A program made the position numbers and the translations under genes. Under the pieces are notes generated by a model that saw nothing but the letters and a program-made list of their open reading frames with translations, had not been told where the DNA came from and ran no database searches. A stretch of DNA of 5,559 nt, taken from positions 1 to 5,559 of the forward strand of contig JBFLYA010000245.1 of NCBI GenBank assembly GCA_040757115.1, given 5' to 3'. Positions 532-2,350 of this stretch are shown here, piece after piece (position 1 is the first letter of the stretch; the number at the start of each line of letters is the position of its first letter). Source of the DNA: a bacterium. GTDB lineage: Bacteria > UBA9089 > CG2-30-40-21 > SBAY01.

Positions 532-743
532 GTAACTATTCACCACGAAGAGCACGAAGGGCAGGGAGATGTTACAGAACAAATCTCTTTATGCCTTCTT
601 TCAATCTTTCCACATTGAAATTTATCACTAGACCAACCTTGATATTTGCCAATTTCATATATGTTAATATTTGAGCTTCATGAATTCGATAATTCATCAA
701 ATTTCACTTCGTGCTCTCCGTGCCTTTCGTGGTGAATAGTTAC
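532..743. mobile_element. 212-bp inverted-repeat unit carrying a GxxExxY stub
   Basis: The left end (532-549) begins GTAACTATTCACCACGAA and the right end (726-743) is its exact reverse complement, giving 18-bp perfect terminal inverted repeats. Similarity continues imperfectly inward through GCACGAAGG/GCACGGAGAG-type words. The first 11 bases, GTAACTATTCA, are the same as the ends of the 1798-2149 unit, so the two belong to one family. The inside encodes only the C-terminal 41 residues of a GxxExxY protein. No target duplication is seen: the 8 bp on the left (ATTAACAA) and right (CTAATCGA) differ. The unit is therefore either old or was formed by internal deletion or recombination. No transposase is encoded, so it would be non-autonomous. 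Confidence 0.6.
572..697 (-). pseudogene. C-terminal remnant of a GxxExxY-family protein
   Basis: A 41-residue open frame runs from the ATG at 697 to the TAA at 572, with an in-frame TGA at 704-706 just upstream. The peptide includes HEAQILTYMKLANIKVGLV followed by INFNVERLKEGIKRFVL. This matches the last third of the GxxExxY family (normally about 125-130 residues), where an H-x-A-Q-L-x-x-Y-L segment precedes a V-G-L-L-I-N-F-N strand and a short R-F-x-L tail. The N-terminal part, including the GxxExxY motif, is absent; the frame runs straight into the inverted repeat. The function of the family is unknown, and its fold is thought to be nuclease-like. I see no Shine-Dalgarno, so I treat it as a relic rather than a small gene. 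Confidence 0.75.
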
Positions 744-766: not shown

Positions 767-1757
767 CTAGTCTTACAACCCTATTTATTTCCTCTTCTGA
801 AAGTTCTGTTATCTCAGCAATCATCTCCAATTTAAACCCTTTTTTATACATCGATTTAGCTGTTTCTATTGCCTTCCTATATTCGCCTTGTTGTAATCCT
901 TGTTCTAATCCTTGTTGTAACCCTTGTTCTAATCCTTGTTGTAATCCTTGTTCTAATCCTTGTTGTAACCCTTGTTCTAATCCTTGTTGTAACCCTTGTT
1001 CTAATCCTTGTTGTAACCCTTGTTCTAATCCTTGTTCTAACCCTTTCTTTTCGGCATAAGAAATCGATGCCTTTTGAATATAGATGAAATCTTTCCTTTT
1101 ATGCTGTATCTCTAATTCTTTAGCACTCAGACCTGCTTGATTGGCTATCTCAAATGCCTTCTTTATCTCTTTACTCATCCCCAGTGTTTTGGGTATGTAA
1201 TTTAGCTTACCCGCATTTTTTATAAAATATATCCATTTATCCGTAATATCACTTAATTCACTTTCTTCCTTCTTGAATTTTGGCAACTCAATGAAGATTA
1301 ATTCAATATCTCCACTATATTCAACTAACTCCTCCTTCTCTATCAATCTGAAGTAACTGATGACCTTTGTCCACTCACTAAACATCTCAAAATCAGTAAT
1401 AGTGATAGCAATAATCGGGTTTAATAGATAAAATTCATCACCACATAAAAGTTGCGTAGAATATGCCTTCGCCGCATTGTAGAGAATCCTTTTTTCTAAT
1501 CCTTCATAATTTAATATCTGCATCTCAATAATTACGCCACTACCATCTGATAATATTGCCTTGACATCAACATAGGTATCTTTCATCCCTTTAAGTAACG
1601 GTATCTGATATGGGTCAACTATGGTTAAATCTTCAATAATGCTTCCATCTTTGAATTTAACCACGGAGTTTATAAAGTTTATAAGTATATCTTTTGATTG
1701 TTTACTTCCAAATACCTTTTTAAAGGCAAAGTCTGTTTTTACATCTAAAAACTGCAT
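759..1757 (-). CDS. Rpn family recombination-promoting nuclease / putative PD-(D/E)XK transposase
   Basis: The protein is 332 residues with an ATG at 1757 and a strong Shine-Dalgarno, AAGGAGGAA (1765-1773). The N-terminus has the family signature D-x-A-F-K-K-V-F-G (residues 9-17). A PD-(D/E)XK-type active site is visible as D64 in YVDVKAIL and E78-M-Q80 in GVIIEMQIL, followed by the helix KRILYNAAKAYSTQL (89-103). Rpn proteins are Mg-dependent DNA nucleases that raise recombination in E. coli and are widely labelled putative transposases. Residues 239-290 are 13 uninterrupted G-L-(E/Q)-Q tetrapeptides, extending the glycine-rich repeat often seen in this family. A helical tail follows (291-332) with KAIETAKSMYKKGFKLEMIA and ITELSEEEINRV, the usual C-terminal motif of the family. 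The frame and catalytic residues look intact. The gene is monocistronic and sits between two inverted-repeat units; one of them inserted 33 bp upstream of the start codon. No clear promoter is visible. Confidence 0.93.
   Translation of the reverse strand: MQFLDVKTDFAFKKVFGSKQSKDILINFINSVVKFKDGSIIEDLTIVDPYQIPLLKGMKDTYVDVKAILSDGSGVIIEMQILNYEGLEKRILYNAAKAYSTQLLCGDEFYLLNPIIAITITDFEMFSEWTKVISYFRLIEKEELVEYSGDIELIFIELPKFKKEESELSDITDKWIYFIKNAGKLNYIPKTLGMSKEIKKAFEIANQAGLSAKELEIQHKRKDFIYIQKASISYAEKKGLEQGLEQGLQQGLEQGLQQGLEQGLQQGLEQGLQQGLEQGLQQGLEQGLQQGEYRKAIETAKSMYKKGFKLEMIAEITELSEEEINRVVRLAN
888..1043. repeat. In-frame 12/24-bp minisatellite encoding GLEQ/GLQQ
   Basis: The tract is 156 bp, or thirteen 12-bp units, mostly alternating between an E form and a Q form so that the higher-order period is 24 bp. 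On the coding strand the units are G-L-E-Q and G-L-Q-Q; the first two units are both GLEQ, then strict alternation begins. Near-identity between units at the DNA level, including synonymous sites, points to recent expansion by slippage or unequal recombination. Gain or loss of units keeps the frame. Confidence 0.92.
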
Positions 1758-1774
1758 ATTTTTATTCCTCCTTG

Positions 1775-1795
1775 AATTCGTATTTCGTAATTTGT
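1775..1795. repeat. Heptamer tract in the rpn leader, overlapping the element target site
   Basis: AATTCGT, ATTTCGT and AATTTGT are consecutive 7-mers between the rpn Shine-Dalgarno and the inserted unit. The 8-bp target duplication (1790-1797) starts inside the last heptamer. Confidence 0.45.
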
Positions 1796-1797
1796 AG
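1790..1797. repeat. Left target-site duplication, ATTTGTAG
   Basis: ATTTGTAG lies directly against the first base of the left terminal inverted repeat. The identical 8-mer lies directly against the last base of the right one (2150-2157). Confidence 0.75.
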
Positions 1798-2149
1798 GTA
1801 ACTATTCAGCCACAGATGGATACAGATGAAACACTGATTTTATTTTTTTATCCCTGCTAATCCGCCTCGATCAGATTACTATTCGCCAACCATAACTCCT
1901 GTGTATTTTACTTTAATTGGGTATTCCAATTCTGGTGAATATTTCCAGGCTAATAATTCAATCTATTATGTTTTTTGATAAACTCTTTCCCAAAAAGCAT
2001 AACCAAAATATTGTAGACTTCAAATGCACATCCTCAGTTCTTTTTTCATATTTTAAACTCATTCTATTTCATCCGTGTTAATCCGTGTCCATCAGTGGCT
2101 GAATAATTACATTTTTATATTCTTTGTGTCTTGGTGGCTGAATAGTTAC
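1798..2149. mobile_element. 352-bp MITE-like unit with 16-bp TIRs and an 8-bp target duplication
   Basis: The left end (1798-1813) reads GTAACTATTCAGCCAC and the right end (2134-2149) is its exact reverse complement. An identical 8-bp direct repeat, ATTTGTAG, abuts both ends. A second copy of the right terminus, with one mismatch, lies inside at 2095-2110. Past the terminus the left arm continues imperfectly (about 40 bp) into this inner copy through CAC(A/G)GAT-type words, so the right end appears partly duplicated. The interior carries a decayed GxxExxY gene and nothing resembling a transposase, so movement would need help in trans. The shared 11-bp terminus with the 532-743 unit defines a small family. 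Confidence 0.75.
1879..2062 (-). pseudogene. Frameshifted GxxExxY-family pseudogene
   Basis: Reading leftward from the ATG at 2062 gives MSLKYEKRTEDVHL, matching the family's K-Y-E-x-L-T-E start. One frame over comes AFEVYNIL. After a one-base deletion comes GYAFWERVYQKT, which corresponds to the defining G-x-x-E-x-x-Y helix with the last Gly changed to Ala. Further on, in another frame, ELLAWKYSPELEYPIKVKY and TGVMVGE match the Y-P-I-x-V-x-Y-x-G-x-x-V-G-E strand region. Stops (TAG, TAA) follow at once. The normal C-terminal third is missing. Order and spacing agree with the family, so the assignment is strong although no frame is intact. It is enclosed by the inverted repeats of the 1798-2149 unit. 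Confidence 0.75.
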
Positions 2150-2157
2150 ATTTGTAG
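2150..2157. repeat. Right target-site duplication, ATTTGTAG
   Basis: Exact copy of the 8-mer at 1790-1797, abutting the outer end of the right terminal inverted repeat. Confidence 0.75.
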
Positions 2158-2350
2158 AATGAATAACAAACAATGAACTGGACTTTCGTAAATTTTATGC
2201 TCCTATTGAGGCTATCTAAAGCTCTCTTTATCCTTATCAATCTGTTTATTTTGTTCAAAGATGGCAAAATTAGACTCAAAAGCCTGATGATTTTTTTGCA
2301 ACTTATCCTTTGAAGTTGAGTTGATAAAAAATGTTTTACCTATTTTCTTC
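2158..2350. other. Intergenic stretch with no supported gene
   Basis: No intact gene is seen between the inserted unit and the CTTTG-type repeat. On the minus strand a frame without any ATG is open from about 2358 to a TAG at 2212. It includes KDKLQKNHQAFESNFAIFEQ and then NKQIDKDKESFR, which looks helical and protein-like. It could be the tail of a decayed gene, but I do not recognise a family, and its length is within chance for AT-rich DNA. Confidence 0.45.

Follow-up and report, generated by a model that had tools for sequence, protein, structure and literature searches.

Mobile insertion cassettes, such as MIC231 of Bacillus cereus and the mic with qnrD, consist of a gene other than a transposase gene located between inverted repeats, are flanked by a target duplication, and are moved in trans by the transposase of a matching insertion sequence (PMC3913671). 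Bacterial MITEs, such as MITEPsy1, are short multicopy elements with terminal repeats and duplications and without transposase coding capacity (PMC3189936), and the Tn3-derived TIME and TIME-COMP elements are small non-autonomous units that can combine to move larger segments (PMC4133298). Among autonomous elements, the IS66 family is recorded with 8-bp repeats (PMC3281130).

Here, we analyzed a stretch of 5,559 nucleotides (the window) from a fragmented bacterial draft genome (4.3 Mb, 462 contigs). Positions 1798-2149 are likely to represent a non-autonomous transposon of the mobile-insertion-cassette or MITE type, moved in trans by an IS66 transposase, and its ends would have captured a cassette containing a GxxExxY gene.

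The unit and its family of ends

A preliminary description of the window had reported 16/16 inverted ends, an 8-bp direct repeat abutting both outer ends, and a coincidence of boundaries that is hard to attribute to chance. The terminal inverted repeats, GTAACTATTCAGCCAC at 1798-1813 and its exact reverse complement at 2134-2149, were indeed found to match at 16 of 16 positions, and the target-site duplication ATTTGTAG (1790-1797 and 2150-2157) was exact and abutted the ends of the 352-bp unit (Table 1). No transposase gene and no ORF of at least 60 aa were found inside 1798-2149, and an Rfam search of the window gave no match. The arm pair of the unit is 85% complementary (1798-1830 versus 2078-2110).

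Table 1. Features of the window and related loci in this and other genomes.
Feature	Position	Strand	Remark
Left target-site duplication ATTTGTAG	1790..1797	+	Also present as a single copy in the empty site (G001, contig C38)
Left terminal inverted repeat GTAACTATTCAGCCAC	1798..1813	+	Family-wide portion is GTAACTATTCA
Left arm of GxxExxY cassette (GCCACAGATGGATACAGATGAA)	1809..1830	+	
Broken GxxExxY (PDDEXK_3) gene with internal stops	1882..2037	-	tblastn and HMM; reads FGYAFWERVYQKT, two stops, IELL...EYPIKVKYTGVMVGE
Right arm of GxxExxY cassette	2067..2099	-	Inverted relative to left arm
Inner right end GTGGCTGAATAATTAC	2095..2110	-	One base different from outer end; the C33 sister copy stops here
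39-bp extension	2111..2149	-	Includes the right portion of a different arm type (CTTTGTGTCTTGGTGG) and the outer terminal inverted repeat (2134-2149)
Right target-site duplication ATTTGTAG	2150..2157	+	
Second unit of the class, GTAACTATTCACCACGAAGAGCACG ... CTTTCGTGGTGAATAGTTAC	532..743	-	Around C-terminal third of a GxxExxY gene
Third end class CGACCTGTG..., bounding other GxxExxY cassettes	L057 1400-1946; L059; L047 1426-1787		This genome; 8-bp duplications
IS66 transposase fragment between GTAACTATTCAGCA ends	G014, contig C31		
Right end after IS66 ORFs	G014, contig C43; G005, contig C353		
Intact IS66, 541 aa, with GTAACTACTCAGG ends	G005, contig C86		
IS66 with GTAACCGTTCAGG ends	This genome, contig C277		
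Bacteroidetes GxxExxY cassettes in a different transposon, GCTACTC ends GCTACTCTTT	L239 2287-2984; L241 2287-2983		

A sister copy on contig C33 shares 93% identity with the unit over unit positions 1-320, stops at the inner right end (2110), and has no target duplication. Since the innermost pair 1798-2110 of the window is not bounded by a duplication either, it was ruled out as the unit, and the outer end at 2134-2149 was the one used in the window insertion. The window copy used a right end located 39 bp beyond that of the C33 copy, which suggests that the ends may be interchangeable and that any two compatible ends would be accepted. The second unit of this class in the window lacks a target duplication and contains a GxxExxY match on the minus strand (581-688; PF13366, E 3.2e-8; GxxExxY HMM, E 4.1e-11).

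Two neighboring features were also observed in the window. A gene at 759-1757 on the minus strand encodes an Rpn-family PD-(D/E)XK nuclease or putative transposase (PF12784, E 1.7e-45; TIGR01784) and contains a 12-bp tandem repeat coding for QGLEQGLQ; related copies were found in the same-genus genome G001, one of them with a GTAACTATTCA-type unit on the other side. Another dispersed element of about 311 bp lies at 2177-2490; it is bounded by CTGGAGTTTCGT...ACGAAACTCCAG, encloses inverted arms of the CGCAAAG type, and is present in more than 20 copies in G001 with no clear target duplication.

The 11-mer GTAACTATTCA occurs 391 times in the genome, compared with 7 times for the same letters reversed, used as a control. 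Such pattern counts cover the whole genome, while pair statistics cover approximately 1.2 Mb (about 27%) of it together with stretches of G001. Inverted GTAACTATTCA pairs spaced by 60-1500 bp were counted (n = 123), abutting exact direct repeats were scored at every length from 2 to 12, and the expectation was obtained by swapping right flanks between units. Exact 8-bp duplications were found at 22 of the 123 pairs versus 0.39 expected, in line with the earlier view that the boundary matches exceed chance, and lengths of 2-7 and 9-12 showed no enrichment among these pairs. The duplications were either perfect or absent, with a single case showing one mismatch, suggesting that the units with duplications are young. 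The same rule was followed by units with the same ends and different interiors. It was also observed in G008, from another family of the phylum (9 of 20 pairs versus 0.41 expected), as well as at 55 of 172 pairs of the sister class GTAACCGTTCA and at 8 of 18 pairs of another, CGACCTGTG.

A longer form of the end is abundant in G001 and in G008 and G015, which belong to other families of the phylum, and rare elsewhere. G015 has many GTAACTATTCAGCA ends and no GxxExxY gene; a 68-bp unit with such ends was observed there (L350, 2903-2970), most GTAACTATTCAGCA-type ends being unpaired in the stretches read.

Empty sites and recent movement

The preliminary description had proposed that direct repeats should be sought at other copies, as found above for 22 of the 123 pairs, along with an orthologous empty site holding a single ATTTGTAG. 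Such a site was identified in G001, where positions 1-149 of contig C38 correspond to window 1649-1797 (98.7% identity) and positions 142-169 to window 2150-2177 (100%), the flank joining straight to 2158 with one ATTTGTAG. Four further GTAACTATTCA units of this genome are vacant in G001, with a single 8-mer, and in the reverse comparison, empty sites were found for two GTAACTATTCA units of G001 and three units of the sister class. Approximately ten clean empty sites, including that of the window, were thus found between the two species, the gap being exactly minus 8 in each case. On the basis of these empty sites and of duplications restricted to 8 bp, the unit is a non-autonomous transposon that has moved recently.

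Copies with the same ends and no direct repeat, which the earlier reading had regarded as evidence against it, do exist, as 64 of the 84 innermost GTAACTATTCA pairs have no duplication; those that could be compared look old or deletion-associated. They were either present in both genomes or found opposite 241 or 407 bp of unrelated DNA, and it is from this comparison with the sister genome that a missing repeat can be said to mark old or deletion-associated copies rather than non-mobile ones. Such a pattern is probably what deletions next to or between copies would leave. Reciprocal recombination between units was also considered as a cause of the missing duplications and was not supported: partner 8-mers were found elsewhere in 23 cases versus 0-7 at neighboring offsets, and almost all of them traced back to a small number of flanks that recur or are of low complexity (GAAATAAA nested copies and A/T runs).

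The units have moved so recently that species of the same genus differ in them. They also seem to remodel the genome, as the positions of several copies are occupied by other DNA in the sister species.

The GxxExxY cargo and its arms

The interior of the window unit matched the genome's own GxxExxY protein L056 (tblastn, E 3.9e-5, with two stops inside), as well as L061, and a GxxExxY HMM profile (E 2.1e-6), only part of the protein being kept. The assignment to PF13366/TIGR04256 is based on the profile match together with the conserved G-x-x-E-x-x-Y and D...ExK residues; intact relatives match TIGR04256 (E 5.5e-48) and have invariant G, E, Y, D, E, and K. The genome contains 65 matches to PF13366 (PDDEXK_3, GxxExxY), many of which are broken. 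Elsewhere in the genome, GxxExxY open frames also lie between ends of this kind (L051 and L052, for example), and a related unit on contig C90 of G008 overlaps a PF13366 match. GxxExxY sequence or its arms are present in 73 of the 84 GTAACTATTCA units that are innermost or have a duplication, and 32 of the 84 contain recognizable GxxExxY sequence. These data show that the window unit carries a GxxExxY gene (predicted PD-(D/E)XK nuclease fold) that has decayed, together with the inverted CACAGATGGACAC-type arms of this gene. The dispersed CCACAGATGGACACAGAT repeats had previously been described as the arms of a defined mobile unit with precise ends. The mobility of the unit and the precision of its ends are retained here, but the CCACAGATGGACACAGAT repeats are not the ends of the transposon itself: they are the borders of the GxxExxY cassette, located just inside the GTAACTATTCA ends.

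In parallel, GxxExxY genes were gathered from 80 loci distributed over many phyla and two domains (bacteria and some archaea). The collection scan used alignment A2, as the first alignment (A1) was too diverse, and arm counts rest on a motif test, an earlier arm score having given spurious matches in high-GC loci. Inverted arrays of C[AG]C[AGT][AG]AG were found on both sides of the gene at 65 of the 80 loci, compared with 0 of the 879 control windows taken from these loci. The purine-rich strand lies upstream on the coding strand at 53 of these 65 loci, and the orientation is opposite at the other 12. The commonest heptamer was identical on both sides at 52 of the 65 loci versus 14 expected from shuffling, indicating that the arms are matched pairs belonging to the GxxExxY gene. 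When terminal repeats and duplications of 4-10 bp were scanned for native cassettes at the 80 loci, two were found at 8 bp, other lengths remaining at control level. These two, from Bacteroidetes, are bounded by the GCTACTC ends given in Table 1 and by exact 8-bp duplications (TGCCCCCG for L239 and CCCGGGGA for L241).

The predicted structure of the GxxExxY protein has a mean pLDDT of 92.7, and its best, weak structural matches were the PD-(D/E)XK nucleases Cas4 SSO0001, lambda exonuclease, and MGME1; by sequence, no convincing relative was found among solved structures. Repeats of this type, common and left unannotated, seem to be the arms of GxxExxY cassettes, at times captured by other transposons, and the cassette with its arms may be the older entity, captured by IS66-type ends. 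It is quite possible, if somewhat short of probable, that GxxExxY and its inverted C[AG]C[AGT][AG]AG arrays form a mobile or homing-like element in which the nuclease would recognize or process its own arms, that CACAGAG, CACGAAG, and CGCAAAG repeats are its traces, and that IS66-type and GCTACTC-ended transposons captured it repeatedly. No earlier account of CCACAGATGGACACAG-type repeats was found in the open-access papers searched, and other papers may contain one. These repeats, present in many draft genomes and left unannotated, are now tied to one poorly known protein family, and one lineage shows how they spread, carried by small transposons that leave a constant 8-bp footprint.

The mobilizing enzyme and comparison with known systems

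Five loci, distributed over three genomes, have an IS66 transposase gene or fragment within or adjoining ends that are the same or near-identical (Table 1), with NCBIfam IS66 profile matches of E 2.5e-84 and 2.5e-45. For both end subclasses, TATTCA and CGTTCA, an IS66 copy bounded by corresponding ends was found. An IS66-ended element shows the same outer 8-mer, cttttacc, on a left-end contig (C172) and a right-end contig (C325), and is multicopy in this genome, where contigs C133, C40, C280, and C172 are interrupted 126-127 bp inward from the left end, as is usual when the copies of an insertion sequence are collapsed in an assembly. An IS66-family DDE transposase, produced by elements with ends starting with GTAACTATTCAGCA, would thus recognize the 11-13 bp end and move any segment located between two such ends, and staggered cuts at insertion would leave the 8-bp duplication. 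As the unit makes no transposase, it would depend on help in trans. Some observations are unfavorable to this reading: the assembly of this genome contains IS66 remnants and no intact IS66 transposase, no IS66 transposase was found in G008 or G015, though G008 has many units with exact duplications, the common end (11-13 bp) is shorter than usual IS66 ends, and duplications are missing at 64 of the 84 innermost pairs as well as at the C33 copy. Since no intact gene was found here and none at all in G008 or G015, we infer the source of the transposase.

These absences would fit with a different DDE transposase generating 8-bp duplications, the IS66 copies having merely acquired similar ends, and 8-bp repeats are also recorded in other IS families, such as IS6 (PMC3281130). 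However, IS66 genes or fragments lie within or adjoining such ends, or closely similar ones, at the five loci described above, both end subclasses are matched by the ends of an IS66 copy, and, apart from IS66, no transposase was observed inside pairs of ends 700-4500 bp apart that have an 8-bp duplication, making this explanation unlikely. That GxxExxY itself is the mobility enzyme, acting on the GTAACTATTCA ends by nuclease-based transposition, might be suggested by the 73 of 84 units with GxxExxY or its arms and by the resemblance of the protein model to PD-(D/E)XK nucleases such as Cas4 and lambda exonuclease. Yet GxxExxY is recognizable in just 32 of the 84 units while duplications are exact, the ends are present in G015 without any GxxExxY, and only 2 of the 80 genes elsewhere lie in terminal-repeat units with an 8-bp duplication, with different ends; on this evidence, GxxExxY was rejected as the transposase of the GTAACTATTCA ends, and such a role is very unlikely. 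PD-(D/E)XK nucleases are not known to carry out terminal-repeat transposition with fixed duplications by themselves.

It is still less probable that the arms, rather than the GTAACTATTCA ends, delimit the mobile unit, the 8-bp repeat being due to recombination or repair: the arms do flank GxxExxY genes in many phyla without GTAACTATTCA ends, but the duplications abut the GTAACTATTCA ends exactly, whatever the interior, and the breakpoints of the empty sites fall at these ends. For a fragmented draft of 462 contigs, one might suspect faulty assembly or binning, or mere chance given the AT-rich sequence, but this is hardly credible when duplications are enriched at a length of 8 only (22 versus 0.39), independent genomes agree, with an empty site matching to the base, and the same length is found in another family (G008).

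Among known systems, the unit is closest to the mobile insertion cassettes. As in these, 16/16 inverted repeats surround DNA without a transposase gene, a target-site duplication and an empty site are present, and there is a passenger gene, here the GxxExxY remnant. Matching ends were seen around IS66 genes, and movement in trans may follow the same scheme. Unlike in MICs, the ends are of the IS66 rather than the IS231 type and number in the hundreds, and the nuclease gene carried as passenger is usually broken and has inverted short-repeat borders of its own. The unit also resembles MITEs (50-1000 bp) by its size of 352 bp, its terminal repeats, its 391 ends, and its lack of functional coding capacity, but interiors vary within the family and derive from GxxExxY cassettes rather than from internally deleted insertion sequences. 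With the IS66 family, it shares 8-bp duplications and ends that are the same as, or near-identical to, those found around or beside IS66 transposases; since the unit has no transposase gene, it was not classified as an IS66 element, and the common end is short. TIME and TIME-COMP are likewise small and non-autonomous, but involve a different transposase family and 5-bp duplications. In REP/RAYT systems, the gene of a DNA-cutting enzyme lies between inverted short repeats, which occur in dispersed form as well, and RAYTs are Y1 transposases. Only the GxxExxY cassette may be compared with them, by analogy in the genetic linkage of gene and repeats, as GxxExxY has a predicted PD-(D/E)XK fold. Thus, the kind of element, mobile insertion cassette or MITE, is already known, and what is new is the cargo and its link to dispersed repeats.
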